The position numbers were made by a program, and so were the translations under genes. 64,000 bases of DNA from Candidatus Tenderia electrophaga (GTDB taxonomy: Bacteria; Pseudomonadota; Gammaproteobacteria; Tenderiales; Tenderiaceae). The first letter of the stretch is position 1. Every line of letters begins with the position of its first letter. Under the pieces are notes generated by a model that made no database searches, had not been told where the DNA came from, and saw nothing but the letters and a program-made list of their open reading frames with translations. The DNA lies in assembly GCA_001447805.1 (NCBI GenBank), contig CP013099.1, positions 62,001 through 126,000 on the forward strand, read 5' to 3'. This document shows positions 22,023 through 39,182 of this stretch, one piece after another.

Positions 22023-22115
22023 ATGTTGGAAACAGGTCAGGTTCTCACTCTTTACGTACTTTGGTTCGTCTTTGCATTTGCGCTGGCAGCGTTTGTGCTG
22101 AAGAAGAATTCCTGA
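22023..22115 (+). CDS. 30-residue single-helix microprotein
   Basis: An ATG preceded by GGGAGG at a good distance opens a 30-codon frame, M-L-E-T-G-Q then about 20 hydrophobic residues (L-T-L-Y-V-L-W-F-V-F...) and a K-K-N-S tail. This is the shape of a one-helix oxidase subunit such as CcoM of Pseudomonas stutzeri, CcoQ or CydX. It stands at the head of the oxidase cluster, before the diheme cytochrome. Two further microproteins of the same form occur downstream on the same strand and one on the other strand. Confidence 0.7.
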   Translation: MLETGQVLTLYVLWFVFAFALAAFVLKKNS

Positions 22116-22289: not shown

Positions 22290-23078
22290 ATGCGCACTTA
22301 TTTAAAGAAATTGGGGTCGGTGTCAATCGTGGCAATGTCGGTGGTCGCGTCAGCGGCGTTTGCCGGCGAAAAGGTGGGCGGGGCGGATTACGACAACGGT
22401 AAATCCATATTTGAAAACGGCAAGGGCGACGTCCCTGCCTGTACGTCGTGTCACGGAGCCGATGGAATGGGGAATGATGCTCTGGGCACGCCGCGTCTGG
22501 CCGGCCAGATTTACCAGTTTTTGCATAAGCAGCTGGACGATTATGCCAATGACAGACGCCAGGACACCACCATGTTTGTCATGAATGCGAATGCCAAGGG
22601 TTTGAGTCCGCAGGACCGTGTCGACGTTGCAGCCTATCTGAATTCTCTCGGTCGGAGCTTTGCCGGGGCGCAGCTGCAAGAGGCGTCCGGCGGTTCAGAT
22701 ATCGGCGCGCTCAAAGAGGGCGGCACTGAGGTCGGCGCCGCGCATCTGGGCAAGGTGCTGGTACTGTACGGCGACATCAAGCGCACCATTCCCGCGTGTA
22801 AGTCCTGTCACGGTTATAATGGCCGCGGTGTTGACCCGATCTATCCGCGTATCGGTGAGCAGAAATTCAACTATCTGGTAAGCCAGCTCAAGAAATGGCG
22901 TGATGGTTCCCGTGCCAATGATTTTATGGGGCAAATGCGTGCGGTCGCTGAGAAACTGACGGATGAGGATATCCTCAATGTCGCGACCTACCTGACCCAG
23001 GCGCCTCCGACGACCATGGGTAATACGCGCATGCCGGTTGAGCACCTACCGCCAAATGAGGCGTATGATTTGGAATAA
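22290..23078 (+). CDS. Diheme cytochrome c (c4-like)
   Basis: Periplasmic electron carrier of 262 residues with a signal peptide (cleavage likely after A-F-A, residue 25) and two cytochrome c domains. Heme sites are C51-T-S-C54-H55 and C170-K-S-C173-H174, with possible axial Met residues in each half. The two-domain form matches cytochrome c4, a known electron donor to cbb3 oxidases. GGGAGG precedes the start. It has its own promoter and terminator, so it may be expressed separately from the oxidase genes. Confidence 0.9.
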   Translation: MRTYLKKLGSVSIVAMSVVASAAFAGEKVGGADYDNGKSIFENGKGDVPACTSCHGADGMGNDALGTPRLAGQIYQFLHKQLDDYANDRRQDTTMFVMNANAKGLSPQDRVDVAAYLNSLGRSFAGAQLQEASGGSDIGALKEGGTEVGAAHLGKVLVLYGDIKRTIPACKSCHGYNGRGVDPIYPRIGEQKFNYLVSQLKKWRDGSRANDFMGQMRAVAEKLTDEDILNVATYLTQAPPTTMGNTRMPVEHLPPNEAYDLE

Positions 23079-23207: not shown

Positions 23208-23780
23208 ATGGCAGGGAAACAATCTTTAAAGCAGGGCGAAAAGGTGATGTTCGGAATTTTCGGGGCCTTTATCGTCGCCGCGGTCATTGGTTACGTAGTG
23301 CTGGAAGTGGTGCGTCTCAACTCCGACACGCCGATATTCGAAGTCAAAACCCGCTATGAGCTTACTGAAGAGGGTCGGCGAGGATCACAGATTTTTCGCG
23401 AGGCCCGCTGTACCTCGTGCCATCGAGCCATGCGCAATGGTACGAATATGGGGCTGTCGCTCGATGGTCTGGGCTCAAAGCGCAGCTACGACTACATCTA
23501 TTCCTTCCTGAAGCGTCCCGAAGAGACGTACCCTGCGGTCACGCTTGACCACGGTATGCCGCCCAAGGAAGCGGCCTATGTTTCGGCCATGTCTGACGAG
23601 GACCTGCAAGCCGTCGCCGCGTTTCTGTTCGGGCTCAAGGCGGAACGGGGCTCGGCCCAGTCCGCGATCCCGCCGGAAGGCAAATCTCAATTTATTGATG
23701 ACGTCCTGAAAATGGTGACTCCTGAAAGTTGGAAAGACAAATATCAGGATGTGCGCGAAAAAGAAGCGGCAACAGAGTAG
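23208..23780 (+). CDS. Membrane-anchored monoheme cytochrome c
   Basis: 190 residues: a short cytoplasmic start, one uncleaved helix (about 15-35) and a periplasmic cytochrome c domain with C68-T-S-C71-H72 and a likely axial Met117 in H-G-M-P-P. This resembles one heme domain of CcoP placed on its own anchor. No CcoP is found in the window, so it could deliver electrons to the CcoN/CcoO pair (inference). The next gene starts 17 bases after its stop. Confidence 0.88.
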   Translation: MAGKQSLKQGEKVMFGIFGAFIVAAVIGYVVLEVVRLNSDTPIFEVKTRYELTEEGRRGSQIFREARCTSCHRAMRNGTNMGLSLDGLGSKRSYDYIYSFLKRPEETYPAVTLDHGMPPKEAAYVSAMSDEDLQAVAAFLFGLKAERGSAQSAIPPEGKSQFIDDVLKMVTPESWKDKYQDVREKEAATE

Positions 23781-23797
23781 TAGGAAGAGGTGATAGC

Positions 23798-24322
23798 GTG
23801 ACAGGTCAAGGGCAACCCTGGGCAGAAGACAAAGTCTATATTCGTTATACTCTTTGGTTTGTTTATGCTTGTATAATATATAGCATTATCGGGTTTTCCT
23901 GGGGGGCCTTGATGGGCGGGATTACCGACTTCCGCCACTTTGTCGATCACCGCTTACACGGCAACCTGATCGTGCGTGCCCATACCCACATCAACTTGCT
24001 TGGTTGGGTGGAAATGGCTATATTTGCCGGTGTTTATTATATAATTCCCCGTCTTGTAAAGCGCCATATCTATAGTGTCACCTTGGTAAAGGTCCATTTT
24101 TGGATCCACAATATCGGGTTGATAGGCATGGTGTTGCTGTTTACGATTGCCGGGGTTCTCGGGGGGTCCGCCAGCGTCTCCATGTCGCCTGACGAGGTGG
24201 AGCAGATTGTGAAACCCTGGTTGGCTGCTATGGGTATGTTCGGAACACTCGTATTGCTGGCCAATTGTATCTGGGCGTATAATTTGGCCAGGACCTGTAT
24301 TGGCTGGGAAAAGAACTACTAG
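23798..24322 (+). CDS. Half-length CcoN-like membrane protein A
   Basis: 174 residues, four helices. The stretch R-A-H62-T-H64-I-N-L-L-G-W-V-E-M, then V-Y-Y-I-I-P-R-L and V-H-F-W, aligns by eye with the helix pair of CcoN that carries the heme-ligand motif G-H-x-H and the following Y-Y-x-x-P-K-L ... W-H-F-W. The CuB-ligand half is missing. GTG start with AGGAAGAGG upstream. It may be a heme-binding partner of the oxidase; a second such protein lies at 38664-39182. Confidence 0.75.
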   Translation: MTGQGQPWAEDKVYIRYTLWFVYACIIYSIIGFSWGALMGGITDFRHFVDHRLHGNLIVRAHTHINLLGWVEMAIFAGVYYIIPRLVKRHIYSVTLVKVHFWIHNIGLIGMVLLFTIAGVLGGSASVSMSPDEVEQIVKPWLAAMGMFGTLVLLANCIWAYNLARTCIGWEKNY

Positions 24323-24333
24323 GAGAACGGGTT

Positions 24334-24828
24334 ATGCGTCAGGGTGTTTTGTGTGTGGGGTTGTTGCTGCTTCTCGTTGGGTGTGGTGCGCAGCCGGGAA
24401 ACGGACTTCAGGTTGGGGCTAAGGCGCCTATGGTCAAAACCAAGACCCTGGCCGATGTGGATGGGGATTTTAGTCGCATTACCAGTTATCGTTATCCGGA
24501 CAAGGGTATGTACCAATATTCCCTCGATGATGCGTTGGAGCAGGGTAAGCCGATTGTGCTTGAATTCGCCACGCCGGGGCATTGTACTGTCTGTGACAAA
24601 CAGCTCCAGATGCTGAAGGGGTTCATGGCGGAATATGGTGATGATGTGATTTTTCTGCATATGGATCAGTATCAGAATCCTGAGGCCTTTAAAGCCTTTA
24701 ATGTCATGGGTGATCCCTGGACCTATATAATCGACCAAAACCGGGTTGTGGCTTACAAGCAGTCGGGTCGAATGCTTTATGGCGAGCTGGAGTTCGCCGT
24801 TAAAAAGGTGCTCGGGGTGGCGGGTTAG
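24334..24828 (+). CDS. Thioredoxin-fold lipoprotein
   Basis: 164 residues with a lipoprotein signal (L-V-G-C, Cys17) and a thioredoxin-like domain bearing C84-T-V-C87 after F-A-T-P-G-H, and a cis-Pro region G-D-P-W-T-Y. It should be attached in the periplasm. Its position 11 bases after the half-CcoN gene suggests a role in copper insertion or thiol reduction for heme attachment in the oxidase, but this is inferred from context. Confidence 0.8.
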   Translation: MRQGVLCVGLLLLLVGCGAQPGNGLQVGAKAPMVKTKTLADVDGDFSRITSYRYPDKGMYQYSLDDALEQGKPIVLEFATPGHCTVCDKQLQMLKGFMAEYGDDVIFLHMDQYQNPEAFKAFNVMGDPWTYIIDQNRVVAYKQSGRMLYGELEFAVKKVLGVAG

Positions 24829-24836
24829 CTTAGGTA

Positions 24837-25292
24837 ATGGCAGGTATTGATAATTATCGTTTGGCGCCGGACAAGCGCGGCGCCATGTGGGATGCGTTGC
24901 TGTATATTCCCGTCGTGCTTCTGTTGAGTTCATATTCCGCCAAAAGCTGGTACGGCGGCGATCAGACATTTGCTTATGTCTTACTCTTTTTGGTGACCTT
25001 TATTTTCCTTATCGGTGCTAATCGGATCCTGGGTACTCGTCTAATGCTGTTGCCAAATTCGCCTAGGGGGTTGGAGCTGGGCAAAAAATCGGTTGCGGTT
25101 ATCGGTAAAGCGGGCGAGCGCACCGAGTTGGTCAAGGATCTGCGCTATTATCCTGACTATGCCGCTAAGTCTTTCGGTTTGGTGGGTGTGGATCTGTCTG
25201 GCAAAAAGCGCCAATATGTTTTTCATCGCGGCCAGTTCGAGCGAGAATCCGATTTTATGGATCTGCGCTCCCGGATGTCTGTGTATAAGTAA
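24837..25292 (+). CDS. Unknown two-helix membrane protein
   Basis: 151 residues: soluble start, two helices (about 19-35 and 44-62), then a cytoplasmic beta-rich domain of about 85 residues, a layout resembling small bacterial proteins with a PH-like domain. No motif that I recognise. It is 8 bases after the thioredoxin lipoprotein and likely co-transcribed. Confidence 0.6.
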   Translation: MAGIDNYRLAPDKRGAMWDALLYIPVVLLLSSYSAKSWYGGDQTFAYVLLFLVTFIFLIGANRILGTRLMLLPNSPRGLELGKKSVAVIGKAGERTELVKDLRYYPDYAAKSFGLVGVDLSGKKRQYVFHRGQFERESDFMDLRSRMSVYK

Positions 25293-25808: not shown

Positions 25809-26090
25809 ATGGAAAATAAATTGACACCGAGGAATACCTTTGTATTGGCTCTCATTGGGGGCGTCACCACCGGCATGGGTAACGGCAGTGTATTCGGTGC
25901 GGCACTCATGTGCGCGCTGGGCCGTGGACGCTTCGAAACCTGGGGCGGCTGGGGCATGCAGGCCTACGATCCGAGCACGTTCCAAGGGTTCGTTAATTGG
26001 TGTATGCTCATTTTTGGTGCGGCATTTATGATCATCTTGCTGATCGCGTTGAATCGCCACGGTAAGCTGGAAGCGGCAACTGCAAAATAA
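25809..26090 (+). CDS. Unknown small two-helix membrane protein
   Basis: 93 residues with helices at about 11-34 and 61-82, joined by a Trp/Gly-rich loop (F-E-T-W-G-G-W-G). GGAGGGG precedes the ATG. First gene of the unit leading to ccoN; a structural or assembly part of the oxidase is likely from position. No family recognised. Confidence 0.65.
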   Translation: MENKLTPRNTFVLALIGGVTTGMGNGSVFGAALMCALGRGRFETWGGWGMQAYDPSTFQGFVNWCMLIFGAAFMIILLIALNRHGKLEAATAK

Positions 26091-26152: not shown

Positions 26153-26248
26153 ATGTTAACGATGTTTGCGACGATGATGGGGATTCTCCTTGCGTTTTCC
26201 AGTATGTGGTTCGCGTGGTATCTGTTGATGCCCGGTAAACACGATTAG
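26153..26248 (+). CDS. 31-residue single-helix microprotein
   Basis: ATG preceded by GGAGGG opens a 31-codon frame: M-L-T-M-F-A-T-M-M-G-I-L-L-A-F-S-S-M-W-F then A-W-Y-L-L-M-P-G-K-H-D. One helix with a charged tail, placed 51 bases before ccoN. It resembles the one-helix subunits of cbb3 oxidases (CcoM, CcoQ) in size and place but has no clear sequence match. Confidence 0.7.
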   Translation: MLTMFATMMGILLAFSSMWFAWYLLMPGKHD

Positions 26249-26298: not shown

Positions 26299-27705
26299 AT
26301 GTTGAAATACTTGTTCACGAGAAGTGAGGATATCCCGCCAGGCACGGCTGCGGTATACTTTGGTTTCTCGTCTATTATCTGGTTTGTGGTCGGCACAGGC
26401 CTGGGTTCATTTAATGCGGCGAAGCTCGCGTTCCCTGATTTTGTAACGGGGTCGGAGCTCTTTTCGTTTGGCCATATGCGCCAAGTTCACGTGTTGGCGG
26501 TAGTCTTCGGCTGGATTTCCATGGCGTTTGCCATGACGATGATGTATATCACGCCGGCATTGGGTAATACCAAGCTGTGGTCCGAAAAGCTGGCTGTGTG
26601 GAACTGCTTCCTGTGGAACATAGGCCTGTCTCTCGGCTTGACTATGCTGTGGGGCGGCATGAGTTCAGGTCGTGAATATTCCGATTTTCCCTGGATTGTC
26701 GATCTGGCTATCGTCGCCTTTGTCTTCATGCCTTTGATGATCAATGTGTTGATGACCATCGTTACGCGTCGTACGCAGGGTATCTATGTCACCAACTGGT
26801 TCTTCGGTGGCAGCATTTTCGCGGTTACGATTGTGTTTTTGGTGGGTAACAGCCCGGAGTGGTTCAATCTGACGGGTTTGAGTGAGGCCTATCTGACTTG
26901 GTGGTTCGCTCATAACGTGCTGGGTCTTTGGATTACCCCGGTTGCGGCCGCGATTGCGTATTACACCGTTCCTAAGGTAACCGGTAATCCGCTGTATTCG
27001 CATCGTATCGGCCATTTGCACTTCTGGTCTATTATAGTGTTTTATTCGACGCCCGCCGCTCACCATCTCATGTCATCGCCGCTGCCTGAGTGGCTGAAAT
27101 CATTCGCATCTGTAGAAGGGGTGTTGATTCTGGTGCCTGCAATCGCGTTTGTGTCCAACATTCTCCTGACAATGGCGGGTAAGTGGCATATGTTCGTCGA
27201 GAACATTGAAATCAAATTCACCATTACCGGTGTTCTGTTGGCGATTCCCTTGAACATGCAGGGCGGTTTTCAGCAGACTCGCGCCATTAACTGGTATGTG
27301 CACGGGACCGGCTGGATCGTCGCGCATGCCCATCTGGCGTTGCTGGGCATGTCTACATTCCTGGAAATTGCGGCAGTGTATTTCGGTCTGCAGACCGTTC
27401 TGCGTCGTAAGGTGTATTCCCTGGCACTGGCCAACTTCCACTTCTGGTTCGTATTGATCGGGTTCGTGATTTACTGGGTGTCTATGACCATCGCAGGTTT
27501 GATCCAGGGCGCGGGAAAGATCTATGAGGTTCCCTATATCGACGTCGTAATCGCCGAGCATCCGTATATGATCGCTCGTTGGATCGGCGGCACGATGGTG
27601 TTCACAGGCAATATAGTCTGGCTGTACAACATGTACATGACAGCCAAGGCTGGTACTGAAATCCCAGAAGGCCGTCTGCCGCACGAACTGGCTTACGAAC
27701 GTTAA
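26299..27705 (+). CDS. ccoN: cbb3-type (C-family) heme-copper oxidase catalytic subunit I
   Basis: 468 residues, about 12 helices. By-eye alignment with Pseudomonas stutzeri CcoN puts every ligand in place: His64 and His345 for low-spin heme b, His343 for heme b3, His205, His255 and His256 for CuB, and Tyr249, 44 residues after His205, at the position of the His-Tyr crosslink. The A-H-N-V-L-G and A-H-H-L motifs replace G-H-N-A-V-G and P-H-H-L. Retention of Tyr and three His argues for O2 reduction. Overall sequence is divergent from typical CcoN. Confidence 0.95.
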   Translation: MLKYLFTRSEDIPPGTAAVYFGFSSIIWFVVGTGLGSFNAAKLAFPDFVTGSELFSFGHMRQVHVLAVVFGWISMAFAMTMMYITPALGNTKLWSEKLAVWNCFLWNIGLSLGLTMLWGGMSSGREYSDFPWIVDLAIVAFVFMPLMINVLMTIVTRRTQGIYVTNWFFGGSIFAVTIVFLVGNSPEWFNLTGLSEAYLTWWFAHNVLGLWITPVAAAIAYYTVPKVTGNPLYSHRIGHLHFWSIIVFYSTPAAHHLMSSPLPEWLKSFASVEGVLILVPAIAFVSNILLTMAGKWHMFVENIEIKFTITGVLLAIPLNMQGGFQQTRAINWYVHGTGWIVAHAHLALLGMSTFLEIAAVYFGLQTVLRRKVYSLALANFHFWFVLIGFVIYWVSMTIAGLIQGAGKIYEVPYIDVVIAEHPYMIARWIGGTMVFTGNIVWLYNMYMTAKAGTEIPEGRLPHELAYER

Positions 27706-27732: not shown

Positions 27733-28683
27733 GTGGCGTTTAGAGAATACAAAATTGGGGCGCGCCTTTTCGGCGTAGCCCTGGGTGGCTCGATGGTTAT
27801 CACCCTATACATGCCCACAGTGGACATGACCTCTGTGCAGGTAACCGAAACCGGCCTTAAGAAGCAGTTGTCATATGGTCGTATCGGCGGGTTTTCTTAC
27901 GAAGATCCATTCCTGCAGGGTGAAGGGAAACCCAAGACGGTTGTCTTGAACAAGGATCCAAAGACCGGCGAGTCGATGGAAACTGTTGAGGCATACGTCT
28001 ATGAAAAAGGAGTTCCGTTTGCCGGCGGTATTAACCATCCCCGGATTCTCGGGAAGGGTGTGACCGAGCTGAGTAAGGAGAAAGGGCGTGTCACCGAGGC
28101 CGACGATAGCCAAGGGGCTGTATTTTTAGTGCAGCGTGGTACCTACCAAGGGGAAACTGTCAACTACATCGAAAATGCGACGGCGACACGCGGATGGCAG
28201 CCCCAGCAGGTTCTAAAGGCGGGCGGAGATGCCAACACGCACTACATCGGCTCGGGCAAAATCATGTTTGTCCGGGAAGGGTGTTGGTGGTGTCACACAC
28301 TGCTGCCGGAACAGACCCAGGATTGGCAGGCCTTCGGTATTCCGCCGCGCCTGGGTGACTTTAACGGCGAATCGCCAACCGCCTTCGGGTCGGACCGCAA
28401 GGCCCCCGATCTGCTACACGTGGGGTCACGCAATTCGTCTAAAGAGTGGATGATGATGCACTTCTTTAACCCCCGTCTGGTCCAGCCGCATTCAATCATG
28501 CCGCGTTTCGACTACCTATGGGGCGAGAAAGACGCGGATGGCAATCCGATTGACTTTGCTGCCTGGCGAACCGCATATAATAAGTACAAAGATGGCCAAA
28601 CCGTCTATCCGCCGGAAATACCAAGCTACGCGCCGGATAGCGAGATCCGTTATCTGATTGACTTTGTGCTTAGCTTGAAGTAA
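27733..28683 (+). CDS. ccoO: CcoO-like monoheme cytochrome c subunit with large insertion
   Basis: 316 residues against about 200 in usual CcoO. A helix at about 12-28, then about 145 residues not found in standard CcoO, then the CcoO heme domain: R-E-G-C184-W-W-C187-H188, A-P-D-L-L-H-V-G-S-R, F-N-P-R and H-S-I-M256-P with Met256 the probable axial ligand. GGGAGG precedes the GTG start. It follows ccoN after 27 bases and should carry electrons to heme b. Confidence 0.88.
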   Translation: MAFREYKIGARLFGVALGGSMVITLYMPTVDMTSVQVTETGLKKQLSYGRIGGFSYEDPFLQGEGKPKTVVLNKDPKTGESMETVEAYVYEKGVPFAGGINHPRILGKGVTELSKEKGRVTEADDSQGAVFLVQRGTYQGETVNYIENATATRGWQPQQVLKAGGDANTHYIGSGKIMFVREGCWWCHTLLPEQTQDWQAFGIPPRLGDFNGESPTAFGSDRKAPDLLHVGSRNSSKEWMMMHFFNPRLVQPHSIMPRFDYLWGEKDADGNPIDFAAWRTAYNKYKDGQTVYPPEIPSYAPDSEIRYLIDFVLSLK

Positions 28684-28698: not shown

Positions 28699-29322
28699 AT
28701 GGCATGGAAAATTGATAAACCGCTGTATTCACTGAGCGATGAGCAGCAGAATAATGCAGCGACCAAGTTGTGGGAAGACGAAAAAATGGGAGGTGTTGGG
28801 GTGCTTAACGGTCGCTTGCCCGTGCCCATCATCTTTCTCATAGGGGTCGTGATCGTTACTGCGTTCTTGATCACGAATCCCCTCTGGGGGCAGCGTCCGA
28901 CGGCTGAGATATATGCGCCCTATGTTCAGATGATGGATAGCCAGGCGGTTCAGTCGATCGAGAGTGATGAAAAGAAGATGGCGTATCTGCGCGACAATGC
29001 GCAAGATCCCAGACTGAAATCGGAGCAGGCTCGTCATCCCATCACTATGGATGACTTGCGTTTGATCAAGGACCAGGTGATCGAGCTACAGCGTAAGGGG
29101 GTGGATCTGGCTGAATACACCGTGGTCGGTCCCGACGTCGTATTGGCCAACTTTGAAGGTGAATTGAAGGCTGATGGCACGCGCTCGCGCGTGCAGCCCC
29201 GGTGGGATAAAGGGTATACCATCGATATCTTCTACGTTTCCTATTTCTTAATTGCAATGTTTATTGTGATCAAGCGCCTGCCACATTATAGCTGGCAGCC
29301 TGATTACAGCGATGACAAATAA
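28699..29322 (+). CDS. P-x-W-G-x-R-P motif membrane protein 1 (oxidase-associated)
   Basis: 207 residues: cytoplasmic start, helix at about 42-60, the motif N-P-L-W-G-Q-R-P-T-A-E at 60-70, a periplasmic loop of about 110 residues without heme motif, and a second helix near 176-193. The first helix and motif match a shorter protein at 37052-37486, so the two are paralogues. The segment recalls the second helix of CcoP (L-P-x-W-W ... Y-P-G-L-G), which may mean it replaces CcoP's membrane part (inference). Confidence 0.65.
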   Translation: MAWKIDKPLYSLSDEQQNNAATKLWEDEKMGGVGVLNGRLPVPIIFLIGVVIVTAFLITNPLWGQRPTAEIYAPYVQMMDSQAVQSIESDEKKMAYLRDNAQDPRLKSEQARHPITMDDLRLIKDQVIELQRKGVDLAEYTVVGPDVVLANFEGELKADGTRSRVQPRWDKGYTIDIFYVSYFLIAMFIVIKRLPHYSWQPDYSDDK

Positions 29323-29344
29323 AATCTAATTCGGAGGTACGATA

Positions 29345-29470
29345 ATGATTGATATTGATAATCCACCGTTAATATTGGCCTGCATTATTGCTTTGGTGTT
29401 TGTCGCGCCAACTATCTATAGCTTTTTTGTGGATAATTACGACAAGGACAAGCCGAAGATTAAGTCGTAA
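29345..29470 (+). CDS. 41-residue single-helix microprotein
   Basis: ATG with GGAGGT seven bases upstream opens M-I-D-I-D-N-P-P, a helix (L-I-L-A-C-I-I-A-L-V-F-V-A-P-T) and a tail rich in Asp and Lys. It is the last gene before a strong terminator, in the same unit as ccoN and ccoO, which supports a role as a small oxidase subunit. Confidence 0.72.
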   Translation: MIDIDNPPLILACIIALVFVAPTIYSFFVDNYDKDKPKIKS

Positions 29471-29521
29471 GGCACAGCGCCTGCTTTCCCGGAGCGTGAG
29501 CTCGGGGAAGGTCGAAAGAAG

Positions 29522-29555
29522 AAATGCCGCTCCTGTATTGAGCGGCATTTTTTTT
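29522..29555 (+). terminator. Rho-independent terminator after the ccoNO unit
   Basis: AAATGCCGCTC and GAGCGGCATTT pair over 11 bases around a 7-base loop, followed by a run of T to 29555. Confidence 0.9.
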
Positions 29556-29745
29556 CAGGTACAATACATAATTGCTATGTTTTCAGGGTAGCGGCGCTGA
29601 CGACCTGTGTTGCAAAGCAATGCCCTGCTGTTTCTTTCCTTTCAAGGCAGGGAGCATGTGCGCGCGTCCTGGCTCTCTTCCCTGGTATGTGTATCCGTTT
29701 TTTGGACGTTTGGTTGGTATTGGATACGGTTGAGTACTTAGATAA

Positions 29746-30069
29746 ATGAATTACCTAGAATCATTGGCAACTTTTTTTCTCTCTGGCGGTCTATCAGTTG
29801 AGGCTATTACCGACGATCGCGGGGGGGTTGAGGGTCTATACAGCCAGCAGTTTAGTGTTGGTATTTTCTTTTTTTTGTTGATAAGCATTATTTTATTTAC
29901 CGTTATCGTCTTTAGGTTCATGAGTAGCAGTCCACGTGATGCGTCGCCGAATCAACCGGGTAAACGGCTTAAAACCGGTGAAAAGATAATGTTTTTTTTC
30001 ATATACTGCGGGATCGTCGTAGCCGTGATTATGGCGGCGGTACAATTGCTGCAGGGCTACCTGTTTTAA
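29746..30069 (+). CDS. Unknown two-helix membrane protein
   Basis: 107 residues with helices at about 38-58 and 80-103 separated by a loop with S-S-S-P-R-D and K-R-L-K-T-G-E-K-I-M. No ribosome site stands out. First gene after the terminator of the ccoNO unit, in a row with the CcoS-like and cytochrome genes. No family recognised. Confidence 0.6.
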   Translation: MNYLESLATFFLSGGLSVEAITDDRGGVEGLYSQQFSVGIFFFLLISIILFTVIVFRFMSSSPRDASPNQPGKRLKTGEKIMFFFIYCGIVVAVIMAAVQLLQGYLF

Positions 30070-30080
30070 AGGAGAGTTCG

Positions 30081-30359
30081 ATGGATTTGGATAACTTACC
30101 AGACGGCTGGACTATTTATATATGGCTGATTGCCGGCGCAATGATTATTGTTGCCGCCATCTATGGGCTGCGTTGGGCGAAACGCAATGATCAGTTTGAT
30201 GAGGACATTAAGTACCTGGTTTTCGATGAAAACGATAAGAATAAGATGACGCCTGAGGAGTTTAAGAAAAGCCAACAGGTCCTGGAAACGCAGATGAACC
30301 GGCGCGAGGAGTTCTTGAAGGAAAAGGCCGAAGCCGAACAGCTGGAAAAAGGAAGCTGA
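30081..30359 (+). CDS. ccoS: CcoS-like cbb3 oxidase assembly protein with extended tail
   Basis: 92 residues. One helix (about 11-27) followed by G-L-R-W-A-K-R-N-D-Q-F-D-E-D-I-K-Y-L-V-F-D-E-N-D, which matches the CcoS pattern W-A-x-x-x-x-Q-F-D-D ... L-F-D-D. CcoS is needed for cofactor insertion in cbb3 oxidases. A charged, probably coiled-coil tail of about 45 residues is added beyond the usual length. AAAGGAGAG precedes the ATG. Confidence 0.7.
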   Translation: MDLDNLPDGWTIYIWLIAGAMIIVAAIYGLRWAKRNDQFDEDIKYLVFDENDKNKMTPEEFKKSQQVLETQMNRREEFLKEKAEAEQLEKGS

Positions 30360-30366
30360 AAGCTAG

Positions 30367-30864
30367 ATGCGTAAAGGTGAAAAGGGTATCCTCGTTGCAA
30401 TTGTGGTCATAGTGTTGGTGTTTATGGGGATTAATACCTATCGCCACTCCCAGGTTGCCGAGGACAAGGGGATACCGTTTTACACCACGGCATCGACTGA
30501 ACTGCAAAATAAAGGCGCCGAACTATTGCGCGTTTATCAATGTCGCAATTGTCACACGTTGTGGGGGTTTCGTAATCCCATGCAATCGGTTCCATCGCCG
30601 GCGCTTGACGGTATTGGGTCGATTCGGGATGAGTCGTGGTTGTATGAGTATCTTTCGGCAGCGGACCCTCAGAACATTCTGCCAACGCGCTTAAAGGCGG
30701 AATATCAGATGCCGTCGTATGCGCATTTGCCAGAGCACGAGCGTAGAACGCTTGCTGCCTACCTTGCCAGTTTGAAGGTGGAGGATTGGTATTTGGACGA
30801 GGTTAAGCGCAGCGAACAGGAGAAACTGACGGGGGAATCCCCTCCCGAAGACGGCCATGAATAA
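30367..30864 (+). CDS. Membrane-anchored monoheme cytochrome c
   Basis: 165 residues: an uncleaved helix (about 7-22) and a cytochrome c domain with C59-R-N-C62-H63 and probable axial Met115 (Y-Q-M-P-S-Y). Second anchored single-heme cytochrome of the cluster. Along with the one at 23208 it could stand in for the two heme domains of the absent CcoP. It overlaps the next gene by eight bases. Confidence 0.88.
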   Translation: MRKGEKGILVAIVVIVLVFMGINTYRHSQVAEDKGIPFYTTASTELQNKGAELLRVYQCRNCHTLWGFRNPMQSVPSPALDGIGSIRDESWLYEYLSAADPQNILPTRLKAEYQMPSYAHLPEHERRTLAAYLASLKVEDWYLDEVKRSEQEKLTGESPPEDGHE

Positions 30865-31321
30865 TCGTCTGTTAACAGTCATCATGGGTACGGTGGCAAT
30901 CGGTGCCGGCGTTCTCGTTAATTTTTTCGGCGACAAACTATTGGGTGTCCGGCTCGAATTGTTTTGGGGCGTCGGCACCTTCAGTCCTCTGTGGGTGCTG
31001 GATCTATTTCTGGTGCCGTTTATTGCGGGTGCCGTTGTGTCATTCGTGTATGGACTGGGCGGTAAGTTGCTTTGTTATTTCGTGCCGATTATTGTACGCG
31101 GGGCAAGCTATATTCAAATGGCGTACTATGACGGGCTGCCGGAAGGTATGGTATTGCTGCCGCTGGGGTATTGGGTGTTGATATTGATTGTCGCTATCGA
31201 GGCGGCCGCCTTCGGTGGGGTGTTTGGCGAGATTATGGTCAAAAAGACATATGGGCGACGTCCCAAACATCTACTTTATAAACAGCGGTCCGATAATGGT
31301 CCGGTGAGCTCTGACAAGTAA
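30857..31321 (+). CDS. Unknown multipass membrane protein
   Basis: 154 residues with three to four helices (about 5-24, 46-67, 70-85, 97-125) and a basic, hydrophilic tail (Y-G-R-R-P-K-H). No motif recognised. It overlaps the cytochrome gene before it and is followed with no gap by the next gene, so it is part of the oxidase-associated unit. Confidence 0.6.
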   Translation: MNNRLLTVIMGTVAIGAGVLVNFFGDKLLGVRLELFWGVGTFSPLWVLDLFLVPFIAGAVVSFVYGLGGKLLCYFVPIIVRGASYIQMAYYDGLPEGMVLLPLGYWVLILIVAIEAAAFGGVFGEIMVKKTYGRRPKHLLYKQRSDNGPVSSDK

Positions 31322-32395
31322 ATGGTCAAGCGGTACCAAAACAAGCGCCGGCTCAGTGACGCGGATCGGGCGAAACGCAAACGCTTCCTGGCAGCCACCC
31401 TGGTAACTTGCGCCGCACTGGCGATGGTCGGGGGCTCCCTGCACGTGGTAGATCTGGGCCACACGCGTGTATTTCAGGAGATGCCGGGCAAGGCCACCTA
31501 CGATATCGCCAAGATGGAGTCACGCATTCGCGCCGCGGGAGAGGACATAACGCGGCACGCGCGACATGAGGCCGGTAAGCTGGAGCTGGTTAAATACAGT
31601 CCTGATGATGTTGAGGCAATGCTCGCGCCCGACATCTGGGCTGAGATCGACACCATGGTCACCATTCCCGAGGGTCCTTTTTTGATGGGCTCGGACCGCA
31701 TCAGAACCGGCGCCCAGAACCGGCCGCGACATGAAGTGACATTGCCTGCATACAAGATCGACAAATACCCTGTCACCAACGCCCAGTACGCTCGTTTCGT
31801 CGCCGCGCAGGACTATCGTGCCCCGCTGGATTGGGAGCAGGGCCAGATCCCCGAAGGCTTGGAGCTGCACCCGGTTACCATGGTCTCCTGGTACGACGCC
31901 AGCAATTATTGCGGCTGGGCAGGCAAGCGCCTGCCGCGCGAGGCGGAATGGGAAAAGGCGGCGCGCGGTGAAGACGCTCGCCGTTGGCCGTGGGGACAAC
32001 AGATGGAGCCGGATCGTCTGAACACCTATTACGGCGTCGGGTCGACGACCCCAGTCACCGCCTATCCCGAAGGTGCCAGTCCGTACAGCGTGATGGATAT
32101 GGCCGGGAATGTTTCCGAATGGATTGAAGACGACTTCTTGCCCTATGAGGGAACGGATGCCGGCAAGGAGCTGTTTCAGGGCAAGATCGCGGTTGCGTCC
32201 ACCCCCACCGATCGCGCCATGAAGGTGGTTGATCTGGTCGGGGTCGATGCCAAATACAAGGTGCTACGCGGCGGGTCGTGGAAAAGCGATCCTTTTTCCA
32301 CCACCACCTATCACCGCAATTATTCATGGCCGCATTATGCATCCGACTTTTTTGGTTTTCGCTGTGCGGCGGATACGAGTGAACAGGGGGGGTGA
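31322..32395 (+). CDS. Formylglycine-generating-enzyme-fold protein without catalytic cysteines (NirV-like)
   Basis: 357 residues: one helix (about 22-42), a linker of about 80 residues, then an FGE/SUMF1-type domain beginning I-P-E-G-P-F-L-M-G-S and showing P-V-T-N-A-Q-Y, V-S-W-Y-D-A, L-P-R-E-A-E-W-E-K-A-A-R-G, D-M-A-G-N-V-S-E-W and L-R-G-G-S-W. The C-terminal region that carries the copper-binding cysteine pair in true FGE has only one Cys (F-G-F-R-C), so formylglycine formation is unlikely. Similar proteins (NirV) accompany denitrification genes. Likely a periplasmic assembly or structural part. Confidence 0.85.
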   Translation: MVKRYQNKRRLSDADRAKRKRFLAATLVTCAALAMVGGSLHVVDLGHTRVFQEMPGKATYDIAKMESRIRAAGEDITRHARHEAGKLELVKYSPDDVEAMLAPDIWAEIDTMVTIPEGPFLMGSDRIRTGAQNRPRHEVTLPAYKIDKYPVTNAQYARFVAAQDYRAPLDWEQGQIPEGLELHPVTMVSWYDASNYCGWAGKRLPREAEWEKAARGEDARRWPWGQQMEPDRLNTYYGVGSTTPVTAYPEGASPYSVMDMAGNVSEWIEDDFLPYEGTDAGKELFQGKIAVASTPTDRAMKVVDLVGVDAKYKVLRGGSWKSDPFSTTTYHRNYSWPHYASDFFGFRCAADTSEQGG

Positions 32396-35738: not shown

Positions 35739-37055
35739 ATGAGCGGCAATAAAACCTTAGGCAAGATACCGGTGGTCATCGAAGCGCGCCGGCCCAGTTA
35801 TAAACTGCACTGGCAACGCCGTGCCTTCCAGCTGTCCGTGCTGGCCTTGTTGGTGATTATCCCCGTCAGCGGTCTGTTTCGCATTGACCCGATGCAAGGC
35901 GCGTTTGCGATGCTGGGCCGCCAGATCTGGTTTTCCGACTTCGGTATGGTGTTCGGTTTCTGGATGGTGGTGGCCTGCCTGTTGGCCATGCTCTATTCGA
36001 TGATGGGCACGGTCTTTTGCGGTTGGGCCTGTCCCCAGAACACCCTCTCGGAATTGGCCAACATGGCGACCCAGAAACTGCTCGGCCGGCGTGCCGAGGT
36101 CAGCCTGGATGGCACCCCCATGAAGCTCTCCAGCGCCAAGAACAGGCCGCTTAACTGGACCGTGCTGGTGCTACTCTGTGCTGCGGTGTCCGGGGCGGTG
36201 GCCTTGATCCCGCTGTTTTATTTCTACGAGCCGGCGCTTGTCTGGAAATTCATTACCTTTCAACACGACCCGGGTCTGGCGCCGTCGCTGCATTGGATTT
36301 ACACCGTGTTCTTTTTGGTGATCTTGGTGGACATCACCATGATTCGCCATTTCATGTGCCGCTTCATGTGCATCTACAAGGTCTGGCAACACACCTTCAA
36401 GACCCGCCAGACCTTGCATGTGGCCTATGACGACAGCCGCGCCGACGAGTGCACCAAGTGCAACTATTGCGTCAGCTCCTGCTTTCTCGGTATCGACCCG
36501 CGCCGCACCGATGTCTATGACACCTGCATCAATTGCGGCGAATGCATCACCGCCTGCGACAATCTTCAGGTGCGCAAACAGAGCGACCGCGAGGGCCTGT
36601 TGAAATTCGCCATGGGCGAGCGTCAGGGACAGAACTTCGATCGTTTCAAGACCAATGTCAGTGACCTGTTTTCGCGGGTCTCGTGGGCCTTTCCTCTCTT
36701 TCTGATCGGGGTGTTGTTGGTGGCCTGGGGGGCTTGGAGTTATGATCGTTACCATCTCACGGTGTACCGCGCCGAAACCTTGCAAGGGGCGCAGATTTCG
36801 GACTATCGCATCTCGGTGGCCAATAAGTTCTACCAGCCGACCCGGCTCTATGTCGCGGTGGAAGGCCTGCCGGACAGTGCCTATAGCTTGGCAAGCGACA
36901 AGGTGGATTTCATTACCGCGGGACGCCTCGATGTCGGTCTGCACATCAGTCCCGACCTGGCCAAGGGGCTGTATCCGGTGACGGTCCGGGTTCAGTCGGA
37001 AGACGGTTGGGAAGAAAGCTTCCGCATCCAACATTTCTCAGGAGGTGGCGTATGA
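35739..37055 (+). CDS. ccoG: Cytochrome cbb3 oxidase accessory protein CcoG
   Basis: 438 residues of the FixG/RdxA family: four to five helices, ferredoxin-type clusters (C-T-K-C-N-Y-C-V-S-S-C near residue 240 and C-I-N-C-G-E-C-I-T-A-C further on), the F-C-G-W-A-C-P motif near residue 93 and a C-terminal Ig-like domain. CcoG is a cupric reductase needed for copper supply to cbb3 oxidases. Its presence supports the assignment of the cluster. The stop overlaps the next start (ATGA). Confidence 0.95.
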   Translation: MSGNKTLGKIPVVIEARRPSYKLHWQRRAFQLSVLALLVIIPVSGLFRIDPMQGAFAMLGRQIWFSDFGMVFGFWMVVACLLAMLYSMMGTVFCGWACPQNTLSELANMATQKLLGRRAEVSLDGTPMKLSSAKNRPLNWTVLVLLCAAVSGAVALIPLFYFYEPALVWKFITFQHDPGLAPSLHWIYTVFFLVILVDITMIRHFMCRFMCIYKVWQHTFKTRQTLHVAYDDSRADECTKCNYCVSSCFLGIDPRRTDVYDTCINCGECITACDNLQVRKQSDREGLLKFAMGERQGQNFDRFKTNVSDLFSRVSWAFPLFLIGVLLVAWGAWSYDRYHLTVYRAETLQGAQISDYRISVANKFYQPTRLYVAVEGLPDSAYSLASDKVDFITAGRLDVGLHISPDLAKGLYPVTVRVQSEDGWEESFRIQHFSGGGV

Positions 37056-38168: not shown

Positions 38169-38667
38169 GGCGTTTGCTCAAACGGCCGCTTTGTTCCCAG
38201 CGGCGCAGTAGTAATATCTTGGCGCCGCCGCGCTGCTCCTGGCACAAAGGACAGGTCAGATAGCTGAGATATAATTCTTTCGGCATGCGTCCGGCATCAA
38301 GCAGTTTCGCCTGCATTTCCCGTACGCTGTTTTTGATGGTGCCGATGTCTCCTTGGTGCAGTTTGCCGCGCAGTTGAAACGGGTAGGGCAGTCGCTTAAC
38401 GTGGCGTGACGGTGAATCGGCCGAGCTCAGCGGAGCAAGAATCCGGCCGCGCAACCAACCGGTCCGGGTGAGGTAGAAATCGGGCCAGCGCGGTTCCAAT
38501 TCCAGCTGGCTGACCAGATGGCGCGCCCGACCCAGATAGACCTCGTATCCCATGGGCATGTGCAAAAAGCTGGGAATGGGCAACTCCAGCATCGCCGCGC
38601 CGCCCAAGTCGACATCCTCATTGTCCCAGTCAGGGAAATGTTCGGGGCAGCCGCACTCCAGGGTCAT
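38158..38667 (-). CDS. Unknown soluble protein with two Cys pairs
   Basis: 169 residues, no helix. It starts M-T-L-E-C-G-C-P-E-H and has C-P-L-C near residue 138, a possible zinc or iron site. Its ATG overlaps the stop of the half-CcoN gene (ATGA), so the two are translationally coupled. No family recognised. Confidence 0.65.
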   Translation of the reverse strand: MTLECGCPEHFPDWDNEDVDLGGAAMLELPIPSFLHMPMGYEVYLGRARHLVSQLELEPRWPDFYLTRTGWLRGRILAPLSSADSPSRHVKRLPYPFQLRGKLHQGDIGTIKNSVREMQAKLLDAGRMPKELYLSYLTCPLCQEQRGGAKILLLRRWEQSGRLSKRLKT

Positions 38668-39182
38668 GCGTCGTCGTTATGTCGGGCTTTGTAAATCGTC
38701 ATGGCGCTGTTGGTGAGAAACAGCCATAAGCCGATGCCCATGATGGTGGCGGAAACGGCGCCGATGGGGATATAGATATCATGGACCTCTTTCACCGATT
38801 CGGCACCGTATTCAAGCAGCAGGATTCCTTCCCATACACCAAATAAAATCAGGCTGCCGTAGAAACAGATTACCCCCATCAGGGTCATCCAAAATGAGAC
38901 GTCTTCCAGCTTACGCGACCAGATCTGGCTACCGGTGAAGCGCGGTAACAGATAGTAGGTGACCGCCATGGCCAGCATCATCACGCCGCCGATGAGATTG
39001 ACATGGGCGTGGGCCAGTGGGTCAATCATGTGCCCCGGTCCGCCGTAGGGGCTGCCGATGCTGTCCAGCCAGGCGCGCACGGGGGGTAGCATCTGCAGGA
39101 CTCCCTGGATACTTCCGATGAAGAAAAAGGTGACTGAGGCGGCGAGAAATTTGGTCAGGTGTCTGTGTTGTCTATCCGGCAT
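38664..39182 (-). CDS. Half-length CcoN-like membrane protein B
   Basis: 172 residues, four helices. L-A-H58-A-H60-V-N-L-I-G-G-V-M-M, then T-Y-Y-L-L-P-R-F and an S-F-W segment, follow the same CcoN stretch as the protein at 23798-24322, though the third-helix W-H-F-W becomes V-S-F-W. The two half-CcoN genes flank the oxidase cluster. Small C-family subunit I homologues exist in databases under oxidase names; their function is unknown. Confidence 0.75.
   Translation of the reverse strand: MPDRQHRHLTKFLAASVTFFFIGSIQGVLQMLPPVRAWLDSIGSPYGGPGHMIDPLAHAHVNLIGGVMMLAMAVTYYLLPRFTGSQIWSRKLEDVSFWMTLMGVICFYGSLILFGVWEGILLLEYGAESVKEVHDIYIPIGAVSATIMGIGLWLFLTNSAMTIYKARHNDDA

Follow-up and report, generated by a model that had tools for sequence, protein, structure and literature searches.

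Four-helix units of the heme-copper oxidase fold were reportedly described as independent genes by Pei, Li, Kinch and Grishin in 2014; these units are said to be nearest to oxidase helices 9-12 and related to all three repeats, to have been proposed as homo- or heterotrimers, and to have been linked to NO metabolism. The catalytic subunits NorB and qNOR possess all 12 helices of the core as well as an FeB site. According to PMC4602095, in which Pei et al. 2014 is cited, a homotrimer model of the four-helix protein YgdD has the core topology of heme-copper oxidases, with only weak oxidase similarity. In current models of iron oxidation by Zetaproteobacteria and of cathode oxidation by Tenderia, the route runs from Cyc2 through Cyc1 to a cbb3 oxidase; PMC5371394 reports high expression of Cyc1 and of the oxidase named complex IV-2 in Candidatus Tenderia electrophaga, and the presence of Cyc2 is taken from this paper and from PMC7029218.

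The DNA analysed here (the window, 64,000 nucleotides) is part of a complete 3.76-Mb gammaproteobacterial genome and encodes a protein of 174 amino acids, protein A (23798..24322, + strand), which has four helices and is homologous, as a single repeat, to helices 9-12 of CcoN. Its gene starts with GTG, is preceded by a Shine-Dalgarno-like GAGGTGA (23787..23793, + strand), and lies 17 bases after the end of the cytC190 gene and 11 bases before the start of a thioredoxin-like gene. Among named relatives, the closest is a MAG of Candidatus Tenderia sp., whose A is 94% identical. Protein A falls among the stand-alone single-unit homologues already in the literature, and its setting is what is new. 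Indeed, like the units of Pei et al. 2014, it has its own gene, four transmembrane helices, a best match to helices 9-12 and kinship to all three repeats; unlike them, it is bound to one iron/cathode-oxidizer oxidase cluster, in a module with cytC190, a thioredoxin-fold lipoprotein and the protein D. It is also four-helix like YgdD (PMC4602095), but has clear oxidase homology and an HxH pair. No mention of A was found in the searchable literature passages, and in the available texts no trace was found of its module, of its strict pairing with the oxidase of iron oxidizers, or of the pair that it forms with a second homologue (B, below).

A first, sequence-only reading had called this ORF CcoN-like, and this was confirmed. 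Indeed, (i) the Pfam profile COX1 (PF00115) matches residues 26-148 on profile positions 311-433 of 436 (E 3.7e-18) with 66 bits against a curated cut-off of 34.8, which places A in the heme-copper oxidase superfamily, (ii) the window's own CcoN is matched at E 1e-13, and (iii) CcoN chains of the PDB are matched at a best E of 8.8e-8, NOR chains being matched by sequence as well. TIGR00780 (CcoN, cbb3 subunit I) aligned over profile positions 340-460 of 474 only and gave, at this partial length, 51.5 bits against a cut-off of 583, so that A is not a member of that family. By the values for COX1, TIGR00780 and the window's own CcoN, the resemblance to CcoN is not due to chance. The match, which had been placed at residues 60-102, covers all four helices. 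In the alignment, R60-A-H62-T-H64 pairs with V-A-H343-A-H345 of the window's CcoN, as the claim of a retained heme-ligand pair had it; in cbb3 oxidases, as is established, the former residue ligates heme b3 and the latter the low-spin heme b. The CcoN CuB ligands H205, H255 and H256 and the helix-2 heme ligand H64 (CcoN numbering) have no counterpart in A. The absence of the CuB ligands had thus been seen correctly, but A corresponds to the last third of CcoN and not to a half. Other searches yielded no family: PHROGs gave no match, and DUF2871 (PF11070, a short membrane family with a profile of 134 positions) was rejected at 23 bits (E 1e-4), under its cut-off of 27.4.

An AlphaFold2 model (37 sequences) has four helices (pLDDT 81, pTM 0.76), the number claimed beforehand, with low confidence at residues 48-60, the loop just before the HxH. 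A predicted fold unrelated to CcoN would have spoken against the sequence-only reading; instead, every one of the nine best Foldseek matches is a chain of CcoN or NOR (probability 0.91-1.00), with E-values that are weak, from 0.03 for the best to 1.8. The VIA-align Z of 11.5 against CcoN is no proof by itself, unrelated helical bundles scoring 10-11. Because of these weak E-values and of the proximity of this Z to that of unrelated bundles, the fold assignment leans mainly on homology. Compared with CcoN (PDB 3mk7, 5djq, 6xkw, 9g6b), A has helices 9-12, the HxH, the YYxxP...YS..L...HFW signature and the fold (Foldseek probability 1.00, rmsd 1.7-2.7 A), but it lacks repeats 1 and 2 and hence the CuB site, the cross-linked tyrosine and the helix-2 heme ligand. 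NorB and qNOR (PDB 4xyd, 3ayf), of the same superfamily, also match A in sequence and fold, whereas A has neither their 12-helix core nor their FeB site.

The window's CcoN was cut into repeats 1 (helices 1-4), 2 (helices 5-8) and 3 (helices 9-12), and these were compared with A by hhalign, the E-values being those of pairwise comparisons and not of database searches. Repeat 3 is the best match (2.6e-24), and repeats 1 (1.4e-9) and 2 (1.6e-8) also match; the CcoN repeats resemble one another (4.9e-8 for repeats 1 and 3, 1.6e-8 for repeats 2 and 3). The repeats have in common an H-x-H, a YYxxP located 22 residues past the first His, a YS..L and an HFW. Judged by these alignments, A is one repeat ("evolutionary unit") of the heme-copper oxidase fold that stands alone and corresponds to CcoN helices 9-12. 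This rules out A as half of CcoN: the protein that had been called half-length is one of three four-helix repeats, that is, 4 of 12 helices. Of the two His positions, CcoN keeps the first alone in repeat 1 (heme b), the second alone in repeat 2 (CuB) and both in repeat 3 (heme b3, heme b); heme b is thus gripped between the first position in one repeat and the second in the adjacent repeat. Since A carries both positions, a ring of A could in principle, going by this repeat anatomy, hold hemes at each interface.

The conservation of A was analysed in 97 homologues (59-99% identical), in all of which H62 and H64 (codons H62-T63-H64, 23981..23989, + strand) are present, so that A holds the conserved His ligand candidates of a b-type cytochrome. 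The earlier reading, which would have been weakened by variation of these two residues, was therefore borne out for the CcoN-like fold and the invariant HxH, its half-length description being the part that fell. Also invariant are E72 (24011..24013, + strand) in helix 2, H100 and H104 (codons H100-F-W-I-H104, 24095..24109, + strand) and N105; H100 belongs to the HFW signature, and E72, H104 and N105 are A-specific and lie within predicted membrane helices. The residues R46, D50, R52 and R60, located ahead of the HxH, are 99-100% conserved and could be heme propionate contacts. In 49 loci with both A and CcoN, the HxH-carrying helix 2 of A is invariant at 21 of its 29 positions, with a mean entropy (0.17 bits) below that of the corresponding helix 10 of CcoN (0.28 bits), while in A one face of helix 1 and of helix 3 is variable (moments 0.57 and 0.62); the all-round constraint of helix 2 suggests burial within a larger assembly. 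The invariance of E72, H104 and N105 inside the membrane would also suit a heme-free subunit with a structural or proton-handling role, in which E72, H100, H104 and N105 outweigh the HxH, but the HxH is just as invariant and is retained in B, which is without the H100/H104 histidines, and we regard such a role as improbable.

In 40 complete loci, A has 77% identity to the window and is surpassed among the cluster proteins only by CcoN (82%), with CcoO (67%), the thioredoxin-fold lipoprotein (63%) and cytC190 (56%) behind it. The restriction of its best match to the last third of CcoN could be taken as the mark of a decaying fragment of a duplicated ccoN. This is refuted by 97 genes of similar length with the same invariant residues in two bacterial classes, and we give it practically no credence.

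Protein A is encoded within a Cyc1/cbb3-like oxidase cluster. In brief, this cluster comprises, on the + strand: a diheme cytochrome c4 with two Cytochrom_C stretches (22290..23078), which we infer to be Cyc1-like from synteny with PMC5371394; cytC190, with one N-terminal transmembrane helix and a monoheme cytochrome c (23208..23780; Cytochrom_C, 1.1e-9), which adjoins A on its 5' side in the loci that extend that far; A; a thioredoxin-fold lipoprotein with a conserved HCTxCD (24334..24828; AhpC-TSA/thioredoxin matches; C17, C84 and C87 conserved); D151 (D), with two transmembrane helices and a predicted mostly-beta domain (24837..25292; AlphaFold2 pLDDT 90) and no match among Pfam and TIGR profiles; the membrane protein F93 (25809..26090), directly 5' of ccoN and kept in 40 of 40 complete loci; CcoN (26299..27705; COX1, 3.9e-76); a CcoO-like monoheme subunit with CWWCH (27733..28683; FixO, 5.4e-17); and G207, H107, a FixS-like protein, cytC165, I154 and an FGE-domain protein (28699..32395), assigned to the operon by synteny in related loci. 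The CcoN is a full 12-helix subunit I with the heme and CuB ligands H64, H205, H255, H256, H343 and H345, and with Y249, 44 residues after H205, the spacing of the cross-linked pair in cbb3 oxidases. The order c4, cytC190, A, thioredoxin-fold lipoprotein, D, E (on the - strand), F, CcoN, CcoO, G, H, FixS, cytC165, I, FGE is maintained in Tenderia-like Gammaproteobacteria and in many loci of iron-oxidizing Zetaproteobacteria. A CcoG-like polyferredoxin (35739..37055, + strand; Fer4_18, Fer4_5), which is near B in related loci, lies further downstream; its position near 35.7 kb is matched by Tel_00495-Tel_00510 (polyferredoxin and hypotheticals) in PMC5371394.

Some further features of the cluster were observed. 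The predicted beta domain of D151 ends in a helix and is PH/PTB-like, with only weak structural matches. A 31-amino-acid single-helix peptide (MLTMFATMMGILLAFSSMWFAWYLLMPGKHD; 26153-26248, + strand) is encoded just 5' of ccoN and kept in 57 loci; it is probably a very small subunit of the oxidase, comparable to CcoQ or CcoM, and easy for annotation to miss. Another single-helix peptide, of 30 amino acids (22023-22115, + strand), is encoded 5' of the cytochrome c4 gene and kept in about 29 loci. The FGE-sulfatase-domain protein (31322-32395, + strand; PF03781, 1.6e-55) has a hydrophobic N-terminal stretch and is consistently part of the oxidase operon.

In some Zetaproteobacteria (loci L025, L050, L051, L053, L058, L066 and L074), the genes for cytC190, A, the thioredoxin-fold lipoprotein and D lie between unrelated genes, with ccoNO not adjacent. 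As it stands apart in this way, the four-gene set looks like a functional module. Its thioredoxin-fold lipoprotein with a conserved CxxC, its separability from ccoNO combined with co-occurrence, and the position of B beside a CcoG-like gene, whose family includes a protein known for cbb3 assembly, all speak for the chief rival to a role in electron transfer, namely that A is an assembly factor. Such a factor would mimic CcoN helices 9-12, briefly hold heme b or copper at the HxH or at E72/H100/H104, and pass it to the oxidase with the aid of the lipoprotein. However, assembly factors usually evolve faster than their enzyme, whereas A is conserved almost like CcoN, and the module is headed by a membrane c-type cytochrome for which assembly has no obvious need. 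An assembly role is accordingly judged unlikely, though it deserves serious weight.

The co-occurrence of A and CcoN was analysed in 239 genomes at least 90% complete, CcoN being counted as of this type at E <= 1e-80 and 70% identity or more. Both are present in exactly the same 25 of the 239 genomes, a count inflated by common descent. All mismatches are in less complete MAGs; in one of these (G228), the contig stops inside D, just short of where the thioredoxin-fold lipoprotein and A would follow. The distances of A follow those of CcoN more loosely (r 0.56) than do the distances of CcoO, F93 and G207 (r about 0.88), which counts against the reading favoured below, with the reservation that A is a short protein. 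Protein A is a constant companion of a divergent cbb3-like oxidase in iron- and cathode-oxidizing bacteria, and we are highly confident of its homology, of its single-repeat nature and of its functional tie to this oxidase. This strict pairing with one oxidase type tells against another rival, in which A (and B) serve detoxification or sensing by binding a small gas ligand, for example NO, O2 or cyanide, to a high-spin heme held by H62, as proposed for other single-unit homologues. H62 is aligned with the residue that is the proximal ligand to heme b3 in the active site, which would suit such a site, and superfamily proteins of this sort are mentioned as tied to NO metabolism in PMC11218638, but no recognised denitrification or NO genes were found in the module, and gas binding is considered quite improbable.

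A second single-repeat homologue, protein B (172 amino acids; 38664..39182, - strand; COX1, 2.9e-14), closes the cluster near the CcoG-like gene. Its HxH (H58, H60) is retained in the B homologues of these clusters, the H100/H104 histidines of A being missing from B, and the genomes with B are nearly the same as those with A.

Taken with the conservation and the setting of A, these data lead us to favour, at slightly under even chances, a b-heme electron-transfer subunit, oligomeric and acting with cytC190 near the oxidase. The homology, the four-helix fold, the invariant HxH, the conserved module and the co-occurrence with CcoN come from computation; that A binds heme, forms an oligomer and transfers electrons is what we infer. 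We prefer electron transfer to assembly, since the conservation of A comes close to that of the catalytic subunit and its module also holds a membrane-anchored c-type cytochrome. Heme binding by A is plausible from its residues; a lone four-helix A would be without the canonical second axial ligand for H62/H64, so that an oligomer or a partner would be required for heme, a point that the sequence-only reading had not considered. Most likely as a homotrimer, or as a mixture with B, A would rebuild a ring of 12 helices. A b-type heme would be ligated there, close to the periplasm, by H62 from one unit and H64 from the adjacent one, and be shared by A units as heme b is by repeats 1 and 3 of CcoN, and A with the membrane-anchored cytC190 would form a small periplasm-facing electron relay from Cyc1-type carriers to the oxidase. 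A more specific version, a three-fold symmetric 12-helix A complex (possibly with B) having a bis-histidine heme b (H62 and the next unit's H64) at each interface and serving as the oxidase's dedicated electron entry in iron/cathode oxidation, is rather doubtful; if true, this complex would be an extant counterpart of the oligomer that has been proposed as the ancestor of heme-copper oxidases. Its conservation, little below that of the catalytic subunit, and its strict pairing with CcoN make A a strong candidate for a component missing from the scheme that runs from Cyc2 through Cyc1 to cbb3, probably as a dedicated heme-carrying partner of the enzyme. It also offers a test system for the assembly and heme binding of single heme-copper-oxidase repeats.

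Furthermore, in a distant relative (G045), a B-like unit (42% identical to B) is encoded directly 5' of an F-like gene, CcoN (57%) and CcoO, and is preceded by two c-type cytochromes. The presence of this unit beside CcoNO in so distant a genome indicates that single units near this oxidase type are a recurrent arrangement. Upstream of it on the same strand, G045 encodes a 511-amino-acid protein (L180:4848-6383, - strand) with one CXXCH near the N terminus, a barrel-like remainder and no Pfam match, which is possibly a fused cytochrome-porin tied to this oxidase. In another genome (G056), a B-like unit (L174:3714-4250, - strand) is without the first His of the HxH (LALGHIF) and retains the second.
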